From a virus, in the IMG/VR virus record IMGVR_UViG_3300017991_000001, positions 1 through 64,000 of that record: 64,000 bases of DNA; one strand, written 5' to 3'. Position numbers and translations under genes: made by a program. Shown here one piece after another: positions 955-35,182 of the stretch. The notes under the pieces were generated by a model. It made no database searches and had not been told where the DNA came from. It was given only the letters and a program-made list of their open reading frames with translations. The number at the start of each line of letters is the position of its first letter. The stretch's first letter is position 1.

Positions 955-1060
955 AAATTCGCGTCAGGCCTGCGAGATACCCACCGCGCGCACAGGCGCG
1001 TTGGCAGGATAAGTGGCCGCGAAGGCATTGCCGTTACGCCGGAGCAATCTCCTGTACCTA
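955..1060 (+). ncRNA. Leader/tracrRNA-like element 1
   Basis: First of four copies of a conserved leader core (others begin near 4236, 5540 and 6165). The core starts AAATTCGCGTCAGGCCTGCG, contains a stem CGCGC/GCGCG with loop ACAG and continues with GTTGGCAGGATAAGTGGCC. Downstream, CTCCTGTAC (1049-1057) is the exact complement of GTACAGGAG inside the repeats of array 1, which starts 45 nt later. The order, structured 5' part, then 3' anti-repeat, then array, is that of type V tracrRNAs. Its UUCG-type hairpin is replaced by a weaker GGC-ATT-GCC element. Confidence 0.6.
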
Positions 1061-1102
1061 CTGAACGTTGTGTTCATTTTCTCAGTTGTCGCAAGACATA
1101 GG

Positions 1103-1253
1103 GGCGGCCCCACGCGTACAGGAGGGTTTGGAAACGGAGGCAGGACAGACATTGTGCCGATTCGGCGGCCCCACGCGTACAGGAGGGTTTGGTTCACCAC
1201 GGCCTGCCAGCCCGCGAAATGCGCGGCGGCCACACGCGTACAGGAGGCTTGTG
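1103..1253 (+). CRISPR. CRISPR-like array 1 (3 repeats, 2 spacers)
   Basis: Repeats of 29 nt start at 1103, 1164 and 1225; both spacers are 32 nt. The repeat begins GGCGGCCCCACGCG and ends AGGAGGGTTTGG; the third copy is degenerate. It shares the ACGCGTA centre and the TGG end with the other arrays but has its own GTACAGGAG segment, matched by the anti-repeat in leader 1. It is the shortest array and sits directly upstream of the effector gene. Confidence 0.85.
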
Positions 1254-1270
1254 GACTCCCGGTAGCCGTC

Positions 1271-1346
1271 AACCACGCGCGCAAGGAAGCTCGGAAACAC
1301 GTGTTTCCGGGCCGGACACGTCGAGTCCGTGTGTGCGTGGTTTTTC
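1271..1346 (+). terminator. Three-way-junction RNA / probable terminator after array 1
   Basis: Positions 1271-1283 pair with 1330-1342 in a 13-bp helix (two G-U pairs). It encloses two hairpins: the 18-nt palindrome around GGAAACACGTGTTTCC (1292-1307) and CGGAC/GTCCG (1313-1317/1325-1329). A T-rich run follows. It could terminate array 1 transcription or form a structured 5' UTR of the effector mRNA; the palindrome could also bind a dimeric regulator. Confidence 0.55.
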
Positions 1347-1373
1347 GTTTTACCATTCTTACAGGAGAGGAAC

Positions 1374-3362
1374 ATGGACGAGAAAAGCGCGATGGAAGAA
1401 GTGGCCAGGTTGGCCGAGGCAAACGCGGTGCGCATGGAAAAAACGGCGCGTTCTCCGCGCATCCAAGTGATGGAGTTCCGGTTTCCGACGCCGGAGGACT
1501 GGGTGAAGGGCATGCGTTATTTCAAAGCCTATGGGGCCAATATGAAGTGGTTGTTCGCCCAGGCGTCGATGTGTCTCAACCTTGCCGGCATACCCGGGTT
1601 CACGCCCAAGAAGAACCTCAACGCAACGGTCGACATGGCCCTGGCCGACGCGTTCATGAAGTTGCTGGGCGGTGAGGTGGTGAACGGAGACGGAAACGGG
1701 GACGGTAAGAAACGCGGTGCGGCTCTGTATGCCTTGCGCAAGGCCTGGATGGACCGGCAGGACGAGCTAGAGAAGGCCGAGAACGTCGGCTTCCGTTTCC
1801 CTTCCTGCATATGGGACGAGGCACGGATCTTCGTGTGGGGCCACTTGAAAAGGAAGGACCCCCGCATGAAACGACGCCACTGCGACCTGTCGGCGGCGGG
1901 CGAGCGCAAGGACGTCAACTACAACACGGAACTGTCACGCATCGTACTGCAGGCGTACGAGTGCCAAACGACCAAACGTGTGAAGTTCGCTGAGGAAACC
2001 GATCCCGTCTCGGGCGAGAAGATGCTGGTAGCCTACCTGGGCATCGTGAAGGGCGTGAGCACGCGGGTCATCCTCGACGGTTGGTTCGAGCGGCTGGTCA
2101 GGAAGGAGGTGATCGAGAACGGCAAACGCGTGATGAAGGTCGTGCGCGAGCGGGACCGCTTTGAGATGGAGCCGCGAGCCAAGGGCGTCGTGGAGAATAT
2201 CCTCTCCGGTGAATACACGCTGCGTCGGGGCGAGTTCTACTTCCGCAAGCGCCGCAGCAAGGGCGGGCCCCGCAAGCTACGTCCCTTCCTGGATCTTTGT
2301 TACGACCCTCATGCCAAACGCACTGCCCGCCAGCTTAAGAAGGAGGAAGAGGAGGGCGAGACCACCAAGCGTGGCATGCGCTACGCGGCGCTGTTCTTCC
2401 ACAAGACGGACGGCGTGGGTAAGGACGAAGGGCTTGTTTATTTCCCCCACCTGTCAACCGACATCACGACAAGCAAGGAGAAGTTGGACAAGTACCGGTT
2501 CTATTCCCCGCCCGTGAACAACATGATGGGTGTACTGCACGATATCCGGGCGCGGCGCAACGCCGTCGTCCACCGCAAGCGTTCGGCGCTCGGGGTTCGC
2601 GAGTTCCGCACCGCCATCAAGAAGAAGGAGAAGTTGTACACGTTGCGGCGGGAGAAGTTCATCACGAAGAACATGAACATCATGGCGAACGACTTCGTGC
2701 GCTGCCTGCGAAGCTGGAACGTGGGCAACGTGATCATGCCGTGCGTGCCCAAGAACATCGAGGTGATGGGCGAGTCGTTCCCGTGGGCCGCGTTCGTCGA
2801 TATCATGCACACCAAGTGTGACGACGCGGACATCATCTTCCTGACCGGCGACGCGCACCTGGAAGCGCTGCAGGCTGCGGCCAACGAGGAGACCGCCGCC
2901 ATCAGGGCACGTGATGATCTGGAGGACGAGGAGAAGGAACGGGCCATCAAGGTCATCAAGGAACGCACCAAGGCCCACAAGGAAATGCTCTCCGGCAACA
3001 TCTCGGAGCGCGCGGACACGCTCATCGAAACCATTGAGAAGAAACTCGAGGAGCGGGGTATGCGCAAGGAGGAGGACGAGGAGTCCCTTCTCGAAGAGGA
3101 AAGCAAGAGCAAGAAGAAGAGGAAACCCCGCAAGCGCGTGAAGCCGGTGCGGAAGGTCATGGTCAAGACGAAGGACGATGACGGCAGGACTGTGAAAAAA
3201 GACGCCAGCAAACTCCGCACGAAGACGCGCAAGCGTGCGGACCCCAAGGCGAAGCACGAGAAGTGCTGGGCTCGCCACAGGGGAGGACAGCAGGGCGAAG
3301 TCGAAATGAAGGTTTTCGAGCAGGAAGAGGCTAAGAGGAAAGACAGGAAATCAGGAGGATAA
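1374..3362 (+). CDS. Candidate nuclease-dead Cas12/TnpB-like RNA-guided effector
   Basis: 662 aa from ATG 1374, chosen because AGGAGAGGA precedes it; the frame is open further upstream. N-terminal IQVMEFRFPTPEDW (about 30-43) resembles the first strand of Cas12/TnpB proteins. MRYAALFFHKTDG (335-347) sits where a RuvC-I strand is expected. A basic helical stretch (about 385-445) looks like a bridge helix, then VGNVIMPCV (450-458) resembles RuvC-II and FPWAAFVDIMHTKC (469-482) the conserved W..F....K helix. The RuvC-I Asp and RuvC-II Glu are not where expected (F/H and P). The C-terminus from 500 on is highly charged and lysine-rich, with DPKAKHEKCWARHRG (623-637) as a possible RuvC-III remnant. 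It lies between arrays 1 and 2 and overlaps no other gene. Binding without cleavage, as for Cas12m or TldR proteins, is inferred; the homology is by eye only. Confidence 0.5.
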   Translation: MDEKSAMEEVARLAEANAVRMEKTARSPRIQVMEFRFPTPEDWVKGMRYFKAYGANMKWLFAQASMCLNLAGIPGFTPKKNLNATVDMALADAFMKLLGGEVVNGDGNGDGKKRGAALYALRKAWMDRQDELEKAENVGFRFPSCIWDEARIFVWGHLKRKDPRMKRRHCDLSAAGERKDVNYNTELSRIVLQAYECQTTKRVKFAEETDPVSGEKMLVAYLGIVKGVSTRVILDGWFERLVRKEVIENGKRVMKVVRERDRFEMEPRAKGVVENILSGEYTLRRGEFYFRKRRSKGGPRKLRPFLDLCYDPHAKRTARQLKKEEEEGETTKRGMRYAALFFHKTDGVGKDEGLVYFPHLSTDITTSKEKLDKYRFYSPPVNNMMGVLHDIRARRNAVVHRKRSALGVREFRTAIKKKEKLYTLRREKFITKNMNIMANDFVRCLRSWNVGNVIMPCVPKNIEVMGESFPWAAFVDIMHTKCDDADIIFLTGDAHLEALQAAANEETAAIRARDDLEDEEKERAIKVIKERTKAHKEMLSGNISERADTLIETIEKKLEERGMRKEEDEESLLEEESKSKKKRKPRKRVKPVRKVMVKTKDDDGRTVKKDASKLRTKTRKRADPKAKHEKCWARHRGGQQGEVEMKVFEQEEAKRKDRKSGG

Positions 3363-3364
3363 CT

Positions 3365-4207
3365 GTGAACAAAATCAGACCCGCTGTCGTTCCACCCCCC
3401 GCGATCATGTACACCCCGACGGGGGCGGGATTGCCGGACACGCAGTTTAAGAGCGTACTAGCAGCCGTAAGCTCTGCGATCTGCGGAAGCTACAAGCGAC
3501 ACAAGAAGTTGGTGAGAGACACACTACACAAGCATGGACCGCTATTGAGCTGCATGGACCAGGAGCAGCGAGACACGCTGATGGAGTCCATCGAAGGGCA
3601 GGGCGTTACGTACAGGGAAGTGGATCGCGTACTTTCCTGCTACAGCGTGGTGCCTCGTTACATAGGCTTGGCGCCGGCACTGGTGGACAACAGCGCGGTA
3701 AGCGTGTTGTGGTGGAACAACCTTCCAAAGCGCGTCAAGCAGGACGCGTTGGCTGACAAGCTGGTACGCGTGAAGCGTGCCAACAGTTGGGTGCAGAAGA
3801 AGTTTTCGGACCTCACCCCGAAAGACGTGCGGCAGGTGTTCGATGTGGGTGACGGAAGCAAAGGGTACCTGCCCGTACGCACGCAGCATACTGCGCCGCG
3901 TGCCCGCAAAAGCGTGTACATGCAACCCGCGGGGCCGGTGTCGGTCAACGAGGACGACCCCAACAAGTTCCTCATCGAGGTCACCAGCAAAGGCAAGCGA
4001 GAAGTGGTGGCCATGTCCGAGCACGAGATGAAGTACACGCTCGGACAGGCGCGCGTGCTGACGGGAAGGAACGCGGTGGATTGGGACGCGGTCGAGAAGG
4101 AGCTGCGCGATTTAATCGCGACGTGGCGCGCGTCCAGGTCCAAGCATAAGGCCGTGTTGGCGACCTGCGCCGACGAAGTCGAGAAAATATTGGACGGCAA
4201 CGTGTAG
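3365..4207 (+). CDS. Effector-operon partner protein, unknown function
   Basis: 280 aa from GTG 3365. AGGAGG (3353-3358) overlaps the end of the effector gene, whose TAA stop is 2 bp upstream, so the two are co-translated. The protein is basic and mostly helical by composition. A region near VLWWNNLPKRVKQDALADKL could be a nucleic-acid-binding helical segment. I recognise no Cas1, Cas2, Cas4, Cas5, Cas6 or anti-CRISPR motif. Leader 2 begins 28 bp after its TAG stop. A role as processing factor, silencing partner or adaptor of the effector is inferred from position alone. Confidence 0.75.
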   Translation: MNKIRPAVVPPPAIMYTPTGAGLPDTQFKSVLAAVSSAICGSYKRHKKLVRDTLHKHGPLLSCMDQEQRDTLMESIEGQGVTYREVDRVLSCYSVVPRYIGLAPALVDNSAVSVLWWNNLPKRVKQDALADKLVRVKRANSWVQKKFSDLTPKDVRQVFDVGDGSKGYLPVRTQHTAPRARKSVYMQPAGPVSVNEDDPNKFLIEVTSKGKREVVAMSEHEMKYTLGQARVLTGRNAVDWDAVEKELRDLIATWRASRSKHKAVLATCADEVEKILDGNV

Positions 4208-4235
4208 CTGAACGAAGCAGCGGTACGATGTGCGG

Positions 4236-4345
4236 AAATTCGCGTCAGGCCTGCGAGATGTCCGCCGCGCACACTGAGTGCGTTGGCAGGGTAAGTGGCC
4301 GTGAAGGCGCTTCGGCGCCGGATACGTCTTCCCTACACATCCGCA
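4236..4345 (+). ncRNA. Leader/tracrRNA-like element 2
   Basis: Contains hairpin CGCAC/GTGCG (4268-4272/4278-4282) extended by GCC/GGC, then a perfect GGCGC-TTCG-GCGCC hairpin (4306-4319), then the anti-repeat TCTTCCCTA (4327-4335). The anti-repeat is the exact complement of TAGGGAAGA in array 2 repeats. The first repeat begins 49 nt later. CCTGC and GCAGG in the core can pair to enclose the first hairpin. Confidence 0.65.
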
Positions 4346-4384
4346 TGTCGTACCGCTACTCTGTTTCTAACCCTACATGTTGGT

Positions 4385-5474
4385 GTCGCACCCACGCGTA
4401 TAGGGAAGATTGGACCCAATTTTAGATACTCGCTGCAGCGCCGTCGTCGCACCCACGCGTATAGGGAAGATTGGAGAAACGATTTGACTAGGCATGCGGA
4501 GTCGTCGTCGCACCCACGCGTATAGGGAAGATTGGGCGCCCAGCGCGTCCGCCACGTGTTCGCGCTCGTCGCACCCACGCGTATAGGGAAGATTGGAAAG
4601 CTCCCTCGAAGGCGTCGCCCAACAGGCCGTCGCACCCACGCGTATAGGGAAGATTGGGCTTACGCCGGCAAGCTCGGCATTGAGGGCCTGTCGCACCCAC
4701 GCGTATAGGGAAGATTGGCAGCGGCTGGACCGGCGACTCGGTCTGCCCCAGTCGCACCCACGCGTATAGGGAAGATTGGCGTATCATGAACAGGTCGCAC
4801 CCACGCGTATAGGGAAGATTGGCGGCTCGAGGTGTTCGCTACAGGAGCGTCGCACCCGCGCGTATAGGGAAGATTGGGCACCCTTCCCGCGAGTCGCGTG
4901 CTGCAGCACGTCGCACCCACACGTATAGGGAAGATTGGTCCTCCCTCAGCGTTTCCTCCGCTTTGCAGTCGTTGCACCCACGCAGATAGGGAAGATTGGA
5001 AGGGCCAACCAAAGGCACTGCCGGTCGCCAAGTCGCACCCACGCGTATAGGGAAGATTGGTTTTGGAGGCGAGCAACGCGGCGACGGGCAGCGTCGCGCC
5101 CACGCGTATAGGGAAGATTGGCTAAAGGATGTTGATCTCCTGTCGCACCCACGCGTATAGGGAAGATTGGATCGATAGGCGTAATTCCGGTTCAGGTGCC
5201 GTGTCGCACCCACGCGTATAGGGAAGATTGGGCCCCCGATCCCGAAATCGAAAAGACGGACCCGTCGCACCCACGCGTATAGGGAAGATTGGGCTTCGAT
5301 GTTCTGTGTCGTAGCCTTGAGCGGGTCGCACCCGCGCGTATAGGGAAGATTGGGTCCTTTTCCCGGACCGCCACGGGTTCGGGCGGTCGCACCCACGCGT
5401 ATAAGGAAGATTGGCCGTCAAGAATCGCCCCAACACCGCGTGTGCGTCGCACCCACGCACACGAGGAGGGTTGG
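4385..5474 (+). CRISPR. CRISPR-like array 2 (19 repeats, 18 spacers)
   Basis: 29-nt repeats beginning GTCGCACCC and ending AGGGAAGATTGG recur mostly every 61 bp (4385, 4446, 4507, 4568, 4629, 4690, 4751, 4794, 4849, 4910, 4971, 5032, 5093, 5142, 5203, 5264, 5325, 5386, 5446). Most spacers are 32 nt; those after 4751, 4794 and 5093 are only 14, 26 and 20 nt. The last repeat is degenerate and ends AGGAGGGTTGG, like arrays 1 and 4. Repeat and spacer sizes are those typical of type I-E arrays, but no Cascade gene is visible. Confidence 0.95.
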
Positions 5475-5539
5475 GTCCTGGGTTCGTTGTCGCGCTTACG
5501 TGCTGGGAATGCATACAGACTACAGCGGTGGACACATGT

Positions 5540-5645
5540 AAATTCGCGTCAGGCCTGCGAGATGTCCGCCGCGCACACTGAGTGCGTTGGCAGGGTAAGT
5601 GGCCGTGAAGGTGCTTGCACCGGATACGTCTTCCCTACCATGTGT
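5540..5645 (+). ncRNA. Leader/tracrRNA-like element 3
   Basis: Nearly identical to leader 2 in its first 70 nt. The distal hairpin is GGTG-CTTG-CACC (5610-5621) instead of the UUCG hairpin, a paired change that keeps the stem. The anti-repeat TCTTCCCTA (5629-5637) pairs with GGGGAAGG in array 3 using G-U pairs at its ends, and perfectly with array 2-type repeats. Confidence 0.6.
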
Positions 5646-5680
5646 CATGCCGTTGTTCTCTTTATGGTCCATATGTTGGT

Positions 5681-6133
5681 GTCGCGCCCACGCGTATGGG
5701 GAAGGTTGGGCTTATGCACGCATCAGGGAGATCAGCGCACCGTCGCGCCCACGCGTATGGGGAAGGTTGGTCGTGGAGACGAGCAAAGCCGCGACGGGCG
5801 CCGTCGCGCCCACGCGTATGGGGAAGGTTGGTACGCCGAGTGCCTCGGACAACTGCGGGACAAGCCGCGCCTGCGCTTATAGGGAAGATTGGCCATCCCG
5901 CCTGGGGACAAATGGAGATTGCGTCGCGCCCACGCGTGTAGGGAAGGCTGGAAACTGTATGACCGTGTGGCGATCGGCCATGTATCGCGCCTACGCGTGT
6001 AGGGAAAGCTGGCTGCATCTGGCGTCAGATTTCATGCTGCGTAGGTAGGACCCACGCGTGTAGGGAAGGCTGGGCGCAGCTCGCCGTTATCGGAGCACGA
6101 AACCTGTTGAACCCACCCGCGTAAGAAGGCTGG
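5681..6133 (+). CRISPR. CRISPR-like array 3 (8 repeats, 7 spacers)
   Basis: Repeats start at 5681, 5742, 5803, 5864, 5923, 5984, 6045 and 6105. Early copies begin GTCGCGCCCACGCG and end GGGGAAGGTTGG; later copies drift to GTGTAGGGAAGGCTGG and the last is degenerate. Spacers are 32 nt except one of 30. The copy at 5864 carries the array 2-type ending. Spacer 2 (5771-5802) is related to a spacer of array 2. Confidence 0.9.
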
Positions 6134-6164
6134 ATCACCGAATAAATAGCAGTGCGGTATGTGG

Positions 6165-6275
6165 AGAATCGCGTCAGGCCTGCGAGATGTCCGCCGCGCG
6201 CACAGGCGCGTTGGCAGGATAAGTGGCCGTGAAGGCGCTTCGGCGCCGGATACGCTCTCCTCACACATACGTCCG
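6165..6275 (+). ncRNA. Leader/tracrRNA-like element 4
   Basis: Core with stem CGCGC/GCGCG (6197-6201/6206-6210) and a GGCGC-TTCG-GCGCC hairpin (6234-6247). The anti-repeat GCTCTCCTC (6254-6262) is the exact complement of GAGGAGAGC in the repeat at 6500 and pairs with one G-U in most other array 4 repeats (GAGGAGGGC). The first repeat begins 54 nt downstream. Confidence 0.65.
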
Positions 6276-6316
6276 CATGTCGTGCTGCTGGTTAATCCAT
6301 ACCTCTGTATCTTGGC

Positions 6317-6772
6317 GTCAAACCTACGTACGCGAGGAGGACTGGCTAACGCGCCCAGAATGAGAGAATACCATGATGTCAAACCCATGTACGCGAGGAG
6401 GACTGGACGTTCACCGTCGCTATCTAAAGCGCCTTGCGGTCAAACTCACGTACGCGAGGAGGGTTGGGCTACCCTCAGCTACCGGCGGACGAGGACACGG
6501 TCAAACCCACATACGCGAGGAGAGCTGGGCCCACCTAGGACGGGCGGGCGGATTGCAACCGTCAAACCCACGTACGCGAGGAGGGCTGGTGATAAGCGAG
6601 GAGAACTAAGACCGAGGCAAGGTCAAACCCACGTATGCGAGGAGGGCTGGGCTGGCGTGGATGATGGTCGTTACCAGGATACGTCAAACCCACGTATGTG
6701 AGGAGGGCTGGCCTCGGCATGAACTGCTGCCTGCGTACTCGGCGTCGAACCCACGTACGCGAGGAGGGTTGG
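6317..6772 (+). CRISPR. CRISPR-like array 4 (8 repeats, 7 spacers)
   Basis: Repeats start at 6317, 6378, 6439, 6500, 6561, 6622, 6683 and 6744, all spacers 32 nt. The repeat begins GTCAAACCCACGTACGCG and ends GAGGAGGGCTGG, with one or two changes per copy. It is the most diverged family from array 2 but keeps 29-nt length and the CTGG/TTGG end. Confidence 0.92.
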
Positions 6773-6834
6773 CGTCGCTTGATTTCTTTCAGCGGGACCA
6801 TGCAATCGAATTAACAAGCGAACCCGCAAGGGGA

Positions 6835-6856
6835 GGTGCCAGCGGCGCCTTCTTTT
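6835..6856 (+). terminator. Rho-independent terminator after array 4
   Basis: GGTGCC-AGC-GGCGCC (one G-U pair) followed by TTCTTTT. It closes the array region before the convergent sulfotransferase gene. Confidence 0.6.
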
Positions 6857-6858
6857 AG

Positions 6859-7551
6859 CTATTCGGTCATGTAACCCGCGTCCAGCATCATCTCCCGATA
6901 CATCTTCAGCGTGTGAGCGATCTGCTCTTCGTCCAGCACGTCCTCCCAGGCGCCGGGCTCGCCCTTCGTCTCGGAGATGTGCTTGCCCCTGAGCTGGGTC
7001 TTCATGTCAGCGGTGTCCTCATGCAGCGAGTCGGTGAAGGCCTTCACCGTGACGGGGTCGACCTCGTGGGCGATGCGCTTCACGTCTTCCGGCATGGGAG
7101 GCAGCCCGAGGTACTCGCGGATGCGGTCCACCGCGGCGGGGAGGTCGTTGTAGACGTCCTCGTACTTGAGCATCAGGATGGCGGGGTGCTTCTTCATATA
7201 GAAGTACTCGGTGCTCATCTTCTTCGGGTAGCGCAGGCGCTTCTTGTAGGGCGTGCGTCCGAACTTGGGCAGGCGCTGCAGCGAGGCCATCACGTCCAGC
7301 GGGTTGCGGTAGGTGTAGATGATGAAGGCCCGGCGGACGATGTCGAAGGGCGGCTCGTAGTGGTGGACCTTGACAACCCGCCAGCGCGTGCTGTTGAGCT
7401 GCTGGCGAAGCTCCTCGTCGACCTGGGCGGCCGAGGTGCCGGCGTAGTCGTAGGGGTGGCCCCGGGCTTCCAGGAGCTTCTGGACCGTCATGTAGGACAG
7501 GGTTGATCCGGTTCGATACATTCCGTTGCAGATAACGAACTGCTTGTGCAC
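6859..7551 (-). CDS. Sulfotransferase-like protein 1
   Basis: 230 aa from GTG 7551, which has an AGGTGG ribosome site; the longer frame upstream reads through the neighbour's coding region. GMYRTGSTL near the N-terminus matches the PAPS 5'-phosphosulfate loop, and YTYRNPLDVMAS the 3'-phosphate-binding strand of P-loop sulfotransferases. It is a paralogue of the gene directly upstream (GMYRSGSTL, FTYRNPLDIAAS) and overlaps its 3' end by 64 bp. Acceptor substrate unknown; a glycan or small molecule is likely. Confidence 0.8.
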   Translation of the reverse strand: MHKQFVICNGMYRTGSTLSYMTVQKLLEARGHPYDYAGTSAAQVDEELRQQLNSTRWRVVKVHHYEPPFDIVRRAFIIYTYRNPLDVMASLQRLPKFGRTPYKKRLRYPKKMSTEYFYMKKHPAILMLKYEDVYNDLPAAVDRIREYLGLPPMPEDVKRIAHEVDPVTVKAFTDSLHEDTADMKTQLRGKHISETKGEPGAWEDVLDEEQIAHTLKMYREMMLDAGYMTE

Positions 7552-8270
7552 GGTTCCACCTCTGGGATCTCGTACCCGGCGTGCTTCATCATCCGACCAC
7601 ACTGCGCCACGCATGCCCTTATGGTAGCGGCTGATAGGTGTTTACGCCAGGTGTCAGGTTTGCCCAAATCGTCGGAAATGTGGTGGTCGCGCACGTTTGT
7701 GATGTTCTTGATGGTGTCGTTGGGCATCGTGTCGGCGTGGGCCTTGACCACCTCAGCCGAGTGCCGGCGGGCGATCTCCCTGGCTTCGGGCAGCGTCACG
7801 TGCAGGTCCAGGAAGTTGGAGACCATGCAGACGACGCGGGGCACGTCCAGGATCATCTCCTCGTACTTGATCATCAGGCAGGGCTTCCAGTGCAGCTGGT
7901 CGAAGTAGTCATCCTCGTAACGGTCCCAGCCGTCGGGGATGTACTCGCCCCACTCGCCGGTCTGGGCCGTGCAGCGCTTCTGGGCGGAGGCGGCTATGTC
8001 CAGGGGGTTGCGGTAGGTGAACAGGAACCTGGCCTCCCTCATGACGTCGACCTGCCGGCCGCGCAGCACGTAGAAGTGCACCTTGGCCAGCATGGGAGGA
8101 GGCGTCGGGTAGGTGATCACGAAGCGGCCATAGCTGTCGCGGAGGCAGTACGGGGTGGACTCAATCAGCTCCACGTCGCCGAAGTTCAGCTCCAAGAGCT
8201 CACGTGCGATGTTGTAGACCAGCGTGGACCCCGAGCGGTACATCCCGTTGCAGACCACGAATCGACTCAC
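7488..8270 (-). CDS. Sulfotransferase-like protein 2
   Basis: 260 aa from GTG 8270, which overlaps the stop of the upstream lipoprotein gene in a GTGA junction. CNGMYRSGSTL is the PAPS-binding P-loop and FLFTYRNPLDIAAS the 3'-phosphate site. A conserved tail MMKHAGYE matches MMLDAGYM of sulfotransferase 1, so the pair arose by duplication. PAPS would come from the host. Confidence 0.8.
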   Translation of the reverse strand: MSRFVVCNGMYRSGSTLVYNIARELLELNFGDVELIESTPYCLRDSYGRFVITYPTPPPMLAKVHFYVLRGRQVDVMREARFLFTYRNPLDIAASAQKRCTAQTGEWGEYIPDGWDRYEDDYFDQLHWKPCLMIKYEEMILDVPRVVCMVSNFLDLHVTLPEAREIARRHSAEVVKAHADTMPNDTIKNITNVRDHHISDDLGKPDTWRKHLSAATIRACVAQCGRMMKHAGYEIPEVEPCTSSSLSATECIEPDQPCPT

Positions 8271-34535: not shown

Positions 34536-35116
34536 TCAACTTCGAGCGGTGCTACGACCGTTCGGACGAGGACCTCCAGCGGTTCCTGATCTTCTGCATC
34601 TGCGTTGCCGGCAAGAACGCCAAGACCGTCGACGCGAAGGTGTGCGAGTTTCTGGAGCCGTGCGAACACCGCAGGGAGACACCCTTCGAGTTCCTGCGGT
34701 ACCTGGTCAACATCGAGCGCTTGGACTTCGCGCTCGCGAAGGTCAAGATGGGGAAGTACAGGCTGCTCGAGCGGTCGTTTACGTACCTGGTCGAGAAAGA
34801 GTTGGACCTCCGGTCTTGTACGGTCGATCAGCTGGAAATGGTGCCCGGCATCGGTCCCAAGACCGCGAGGTTCTTTCTGCTGTACACGCGGGAGTACTTC
34901 CGGGGGGCGGTACTCGACACGCACGTGCTCCAGCACCTGGTGGCTTGCGGATGCAAGAAGGTGCCGAAGCAGACACCGCAGGACCCGAAGGTGTACCGGA
35001 AGTGGGAGGCGGTCGTGCTGGAGCTGGCCGCGGCCAACGGAATGGACCCGGCCGAGTACGACAACGAGATCTGGAAGAGCCGGAGCCCCTCAGCGGAGTT
35101 GGGGGTGTCTCCGTAG
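34532..35116 (+). CDS. HhH-GPD DNA glycosylase (endonuclease III-like)
   Basis: 194 aa from ATG 34532. Helix-hairpin-helix VPGIGPKTARFF (about 104-115) keeps the lysine used by bifunctional glycosylases, and VLDTHVLQHL (about 130-139) the catalytic aspartate. Shorter than EndoIII and without its C-terminal iron-sulfur cysteines. Removes damaged or modified bases. Its TAG stop lies inside the downstream tRNA gene. Confidence 0.75.
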   Translation: MINFERCYDRSDEDLQRFLIFCICVAGKNAKTVDAKVCEFLEPCEHRRETPFEFLRYLVNIERLDFALAKVKMGKYRLLERSFTYLVEKELDLRSCTVDQLEMVPGIGPKTARFFLLYTREYFRGAVLDTHVLQHLVACGCKKVPKQTPQDPKVYRKWEAVVLELAAANGMDPAEYDNEIWKSRSPSAELGVSP

Positions 35117-35179
35117 CTCAACAGGCAGAGCGACGCTCTCTAAAAGCGGTGGTTCCGGGTTCGAGTCCCGGCGGAGGCA
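35107..35179 (+). tRNA. tRNA with anticodon CUA (amber suppressor)
   Basis: Cloverleaf by eye: acceptor GTCTCCG/CGGAGGC (one U-G), D-stem GCTC/GAGC, anticodon stem CGCT/AGCG with loop CTCTAAA, T-arm CCGGG-TTCGAGT-CCCGG, discriminator A, no encoded CCA. Counting from the loop, positions 34-36 are CTA, which reads UAG. Ten 5' nucleotides overlap the end of the glycosylase gene. Charging identity cannot be told by eye. Confidence 0.85.
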
Positions 35180-35182
35180 TTT

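Follow-up and report, generated by a model that had tools for sequence, protein, structure and literature searches.

Does the genome of a large phage, in which four repeat arrays are grouped around a pair of genes, contain an RNA-guided system that belongs to the phage itself, and which of its products could be the effector? The window (the whole stretch of DNA analysed, 64,000 nucleotides) corresponds to bases 1–64000 of a virus record of 211,084 bases, and the locus with the four arrays occupies 0.9–6.8 kb of it. Because 123 bases are common to both ends of the record, it is probably a complete genome, either circular or terminally redundant. It encodes a large terminase (28% identity to that of Salmonella phage Arash), a family A DNA polymerase and further phage functions. 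A related phage (G001) has 207,857 bases, and its terminase is 48% identical to that of the phage studied here.

Several other features of the genome deserve mention. An alternative genetic code was ruled out, since 17 of 80 long genes end in TAG; this ordinary stop coexists with a tRNA gene (window 35106–35180, Rfam tRNA 61 bits) whose CTA anticodon is amber suppressor-like and which was called tRNA-Pyl. The phage also encodes a tmRNA, at about 104.4 kb of the genome, with the tag AKTKVVAGDFGASRVALAA. Among the Pfam and PADLOC matches of its first ~115 kb are Caspase-domain (Peptidase_C14), NADAR and SMC/LmuB-like proteins. Sulfotransferase families are also among the phage's Pfam matches, and beside array 4 (6859–8270, minus strand) there are two neighbouring, similar genes that appear sulfotransferase-like on reading.

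Four arrays and their spacers

The locus contains four arrays with 3 + 19 + 7 + 8 = 37 repeats, each of 29 nt:

1103..1253, + strand: array 1 (A1), 3 repeats, the third degenerate
4385..5474, + strand: array 2 (A2), 19 repeats, perfect near the leader and degenerate at the far end
5681..6073, + strand: array 3 (A3), 7 repeats and perhaps an eighth, degenerate, at 6106–6134
6317..6772, + strand: array 4 (A4), 8 repeats

Exactly 32 nt separate the repeats in 28 of the 33 inter-repeat intervals, the remaining five spacers being 14, 20, 26, 30 and 31 nt long. The original prediction of four arrays with a common 29/32 architecture is therefore upheld; its count of 34 spacers is reached only if the degenerate A3 repeat at 6106 is included, and is otherwise 33. 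The constant lengths, the differing spacers and the adjoining leader are the features by which CRISPR arrays are recognized. Repeat decay grows with the distance from the leader (pooled permutation p 0.003; A4 alone has no such trend), and in A2 the first eight repeats are perfect and the last has 7 mismatches. Such leader-distal degeneration is the pattern expected of arrays that grow at their leader end.

The repeats of all the arrays retain CCCACG and a terminal TGG, and they vary where the anti-repeat described below pairs with them. They contain no notable hairpin and fold no better than their shuffles, which makes a Cas6-type route unlikely. One scan of GTDB genomes with the repeat pattern gave no convincing match; its five single matches, one per stretch, were judged to be chance. 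Array-like signals in G001 and at 208 kb of the phage proved to be low-complexity coding repeats. Immediately ahead of the locus (about 208–210 kb) the phage has tail fibre genes whose collagen-like GVTGVTG repeats mimic arrays in a k-mer scan.

Comparison of the spacers with the phage itself gave at most 14 contiguous bases or dispersed 21-mers of ~90% identity, and comparison with phages and plasmids yielded no convincing protospacer. The weak matches of spacer A2s12, to a minor tail protein of a Curtobacterium phage and to an IMG/VR contig, were no better than the expectation for GC-rich 25-mers. Two spacers of different arrays, A2s12 (5061–5092) and A3s2 (5771–5802), are identical, in register, at 25 of 32 positions (uncorrected p about 2.5e-9, the comparisons numbering some tens of thousands). 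They represent either the same site in two related targets or a copy that has subsequently drifted.

A common leader RNA with array-specific anti-repeats

One RNA core of ~90 nt precedes every array, its four copies being 88% identical, and an outer stem (P1), which begins 2–4 nt before the core, closes each copy:

955..1044, + strand: leader core copy 1; P1 arms 922–956 and 1058–1098, the least regular P1 (7+5+5 bp)
4236..4326, + strand: leader core copy 2; P1 arms 4205–4237 and 4339–4370; fold z -3.35
5540..5628, + strand: leader core copy 3; P1 arms 5511–5539 and 5638–5667, P1 8+8
6165..6254, + strand: leader core copy 4; P1 arms 6140–6166 and 6271–6298

P1 has 18 contiguous pairs in leader 2 and 19 in leader 4, and in leaders 1 to 4, respectively, 25, 0, 1 and 0 of 300 shuffles were as good. 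The sequences of its arms vary among the copies yet pair in each of them; hence it is the pairing, and not the sequence, that is kept. RNAalifold analysis of the four cores gave 30 pairs; in three of them, situated in two hairpins, some copy has both bases replaced. Folded as single sequences, leader 2 is far better than its shuffles and the other leaders have z values of -1.0 to -1.9; leader 1, the P1 of which is weak, folds no better than its shuffles. A covariance model of the core, applied to 440 kb of the phage and its 208-kb relative G001, found exactly these four copies, in agreement with the prediction of one structured leader present four times. The same model gave no convincing match in a sample of 399 Pseudomonadota genomes, and the leader RNA is unmatched in Rfam. 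Three matches to the core motif in IMG/VR were judged to be chance, two of them having no arrays and the third being an 18-mer within coding sequence.

At an identical site in all copies, after the core and before the 3' arm of P1, there is an anti-repeat; it forms 10–14 bp with the repeats of its own array, in their 3' half:

1049..1057, + strand: anti-repeat 1, CTCCTGTAC, a 9-nt exact complement of the A1 repeats (other arrays at most 8)
4327..4335, + strand: anti-repeat 2, TCTTCCCTA, pairs with the A2 repeats
5629..5638, + strand: anti-repeat 3, TCTTCCCTAC, pairs with the A3 repeats
6257..6265, + strand: anti-repeat 4, CTCCTCACA, pairs with the A4 repeats; best duplex -25.6 kcal/mol

The exact complement is 9 nt long with the array's own repeats and 6–8 nt with those of foreign arrays, save for A2 and A3, which have a common sequence; by sequence the anti-repeats form three families (A1; A2 and A3; A4). 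The anti-repeat changes along with the repeat from array to array. The pairing covers repeat positions ~13–27 and stops about 2 nt short of the spacer. Duplex energies with the own repeats of A1 to A4 are -17.7, -16.1, -15.4 and -19.1 kcal/mol, and 0, 2, 14 and 5 of 1000 shuffles, respectively, were as good, a comparison that is somewhat generous because the complement was already known when the segments were chosen. Of the 24 ways in which the leaders can be assigned to the arrays, the actual one comes second, beside the exchange of A2 and A3. When whole leaders were submitted to RNAduplex, other pairings dominated and the own arrays were not singled out; in contrast, the test confined to the anti-repeat segment does single them out.

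The order of scaffold and anti-repeat followed by repeat and spacer is that of type V tracrRNAs, type II having the reverse. This order, a structured RNA and then an anti-repeat adjoining the array, had been proposed for the locus, and the pairing with the own array, better than that of shuffles, bears it out. The further claim that each leader ends in an anti-repeat needs amendment: the anti-repeat is present in all four, inside the closing stem and not at the very end.

The operon and its two proteins

Between A1 and leader 2 lies an operon of two genes, preceded by a terminator-like element:

1269..1342, + strand: terminator-like hairpin and T-run, after array 1 and before the operon; fold z-score -3.6; terminator scan 1327–1340
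1374..3362, + strand: gene of the 662-aa protein, the candidate effector; ATG after GGAGAGG; pI 9.7
3365..4207, + strand: gene of the 280-aa protein, second in the operon; GTG after AGGAGG; pI 9.5

The Shine-Dalgarno-like sequence before each gene and the codon use of both, which is coding-like and phage-like, confirm the operon in the predicted position. Since the left P1 arm of leader 2 starts within the stop codon that ends the 280-aa gene, the operon transcript probably includes this leader. A scan of the locus for sigma-70-like promoters gave none, a negative of little weight in a phage that may have promoters of its own.

Searches of Pfam, PADLOC, NCBIfam, PHROGs, the PDB and 50,697 phages gave no significant match for either protein, and a search of 72,556 plasmids gave none for the 662-aa protein. 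Pattern scans of IMG/VR and GTDB, which reach close relatives only, found no relative of the proteins, and G001 has no detectable relative of either the 662-aa protein or the leader core. Matches of the 662-aa protein in the 399 Pseudomonadota genomes (E 0.002–0.008 per genome) were attributed to chance, two of them falling in a predicted coiled-coil region. As the phage, plasmid, IMG/VR, GTDB and Pseudomonadota scans revealed no second genome with the system, no argument can be drawn from conservation across species.

The original prediction had envisaged the 662-aa protein as a divergent Cas12/TnpB, and this found no support: besides the lack of a match in Pfam, PADLOC, NCBIfam, PHROGs and the PDB, a profile of 21 TnpB proteins places the protein 168th of 221, at the level of ordinary phage proteins and of shuffled versions of itself. 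None of the tests tied either protein to Cas12, TnpB, Cas9, Cas13 or any other family. AlphaFold on a single sequence gave no usable model (pLDDT 39 and 36), and at such values the Foldseek matches of the models are meaningless. There are two weak hints, neither of which establishes membership of a family and which are mutually exclusive as they concern the same residues. The predicted order of elements in residues 335–515 (strand-strand-helix-helix-strand-helix-strand-helix) is RuvC-like; if this region is so folded, its motif II strand NVIMPCV has no glutamate, and binding without cleavage would be expected of the protein. Such a dead-RuvC reading found no support in the TnpB profile or in AlphaFold and Foldseek. 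The other hint is a single canonical HEPN motif RNxxxH, RNAVVH at residues 395–400 (context LHDIRARRNAVVH); the motif was counted 5 times in phage proteins totalling 63,012 aa, so about 0.05 occurrences would be expected in a protein of 662 aa. The HEPN families of Pfam leave the protein unmatched even at weak thresholds.

Elsewhere in the phage, a PADLOC scan of 192 proteins revealed no cas1, cas2, cas6 or Cascade gene among the families listed (25 of the 95 matching families for one of two protein sets). It is likely that these genes are absent from the phage. More broadly, the matches listed for the ~190 proteins scanned include no Cas gene.

A probable guide system of the phage and its alternatives

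On balance we think it probable, if by no means assured, that the phage owns a tracr-dependent, CRISPR-like guide system. The 29/32 arrays, the cores with paired changes, P1, the array-specific anti-repeats, the polarity and the non-self spacers suggest it, as do the resemblance of A2s12 to A3s2 and the start of leader 2 in the operon's stop codon, and the predicted basic character of both proteins also seems to point that way. Against it are the missing effector homology, protospacer and second genome, the weak leader 1 and the lack of a sigma-70-like promoter. The basic 662-aa protein is the probable effector, and it is possible that one effector serves four guide families, as the original prediction had it. 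A more specific version we consider rather doubtful: the effector would be neither Cas9, Cas12 nor Cas13 but a member of a new protein family, and the anti-repeats of the four paralogous scaffold RNAs would distribute this one effector among the different arrays.

The arrays, their polarity, the leader fold, the array-specific anti-repeats and the operon, all shown by the sequence analysis, would fit together as follows. Each module would give rise to a scaffold RNA, consisting of the conserved core closed by P1, and to a repeat-spacer transcript, perhaps on one or two long transcripts that include the genes. The anti-repeat, single-stranded between core and P1, would couple the scaffold to a guide through the repeats of its own array. 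Host RNase III would be likely to cut P1 and the repeat:anti-repeat duplex, producing a scaffold of ~100 nt and unit crRNAs. The scaffold-guide pair would then be bound by the 662-aa protein, probably aided by the 280-aa protein, and the 32-nt guide would direct the complex to foreign nucleic acid, perhaps that of rival phages, which it would block or cut. New spacers would be added at the leader end by adaptation proteins acting in trans and supplied by the host, as no adaptation gene was recognised in the phage.

With the tracr-dependent type V systems (Cas12b, Cas12c, Cas12e, Cas12f and Cas12k) the locus shares a scaffold whose 3'-side anti-repeat pairs with the repeat ahead of the spacer, in the 3' half of that repeat, and a single large gene beside an array. 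It differs from them in its 29-nt repeats, in the lack of detectable RuvC/Cas12 homology and of recognised adaptation genes, in having four paralogous scaffolds with differing anti-repeats at one locus, and in the long outer stem around the anti-repeat. Type V systems also have a single effector with a RuvC-like domain (Cas12) and RNA-guided DNA targeting beside a PAM, and the adaptation genes cas1 and cas2 are optional in them. Only the RNA geometry of the locus warrants the type V label. Cas12c exemplifies the type V order (PMC9522604); in types II and V tracrRNA has had several independent origins, and RuvC was repeatedly inactivated within type V (PMC12669027). Were the phage protein RuvC-like, it would, without the motif II glutamate, act by binding as do the inactivated V-M Cas12m and V-C Cas12c, the RuvC fold in the phage protein being putative. 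V-M differs further in that, to our knowledge, it uses no tracrRNA.

Other known systems resemble the locus less closely. In type II the anti-repeat is at the 5' end of the tracrRNA and pairs with the repeat 3' of the spacer, whereas in the phage it is 3' of the core and pairs beside the following spacer; nor was there a match to Cas9 (HNH and RuvC). Types I-E and I-F have a 29/32-like unit, but the phage repeats have no palindromic hairpin and the families listed include no Cascade genes. The systems of huge phages (CasPhi/Cas12j and Cas14-like; PMC7162821) have in common with the locus a genome above 200 kb, the lack of cas1 and cas2, compact arrays and a proposed anti-phage use; however, CasPhi works with crRNA alone, and their effectors are recognisable by HMMs, unlike the 662-aa protein. 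Phages that have arrays and no adaptation genes are known, some with an effector missing a catalytic residue (PMC7162821; PMC11656645). TIGR-Tas (PMC12045711) likewise has a tandem guide array in a phage beside an unusual protein, but with paired short spacers, two alternating repeats (edge and loop), 36-nt RNAs and a Nop-domain protein, whereas the phage has a single repeat type, 32-nt spacers and no Nop match in Pfam.

That the arrays and scaffolds serve a tracr-using type V effector encoded by the host, the two phage genes acting otherwise or adjusting the host system, appears unlikely to us. The lack of cas genes among the matches listed for the phage proteins would agree with it, as would the leader-end polarity without adaptation genes, which suggests the use of host machinery, and phages with arrays and without interference genes have been described (PMC7162821). 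It is opposed by the two basic, otherwise unmatched proteins between A1 and A2, in whose stop codon leader 2 starts, and by the outcome of the GTDB repeat scan and of the search for the core in the sampled Pseudomonadota. A Cas13-like, RNA-guided RNase working with a tracr-like RNA is improbable: the HEPN-like motif of the 662-aa protein is in excess of expectation and its predicted helical context fits, but a lone motif can arise by chance and no HEPN family is matched. Type VI effectors, furthermore, have two HEPN motifs and are not known to use a tracrRNA.

Highly improbable is a third alternative, in which the RNAs would be RNA anti-CRISPRs, tying up a CRISPR effector of the host as decoys or inhibitors. 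Some phages do carry repeat mimics by which host systems are blocked (PMC10651486), but the known mimics (Racr) are solitary, host-like repeat units, whereas here there are 37 repeats in four arrays, with different spacers, for which a decoy has no need, and array-specific anti-repeats. Scarcely credible, finally, is the idea that the repeats are structural DNA or RNA, such as signals for packaging, replication or recombination, and only array-like; the lack of a convincing protospacer in phages or plasmids would agree with it, but it gives no reason for non-repeating 32-nt spacers, leader polarity or anti-repeats that follow the repeats.

The observation on which the phage-owned guide system is based is real, and it is stronger than the original prediction could show. 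In the tracrRNA systems known to us there is one tracrRNA per repeat family. Here, in a phage, one locus has four scaffolds that share a core and differ in their anti-repeats, each matched to its own array: natural guide channels grouped around a single operon. Should the 662-aa protein prove to be the effector, it would be either a Cas12 too diverged to be detected or a guide-using protein of a new kind.
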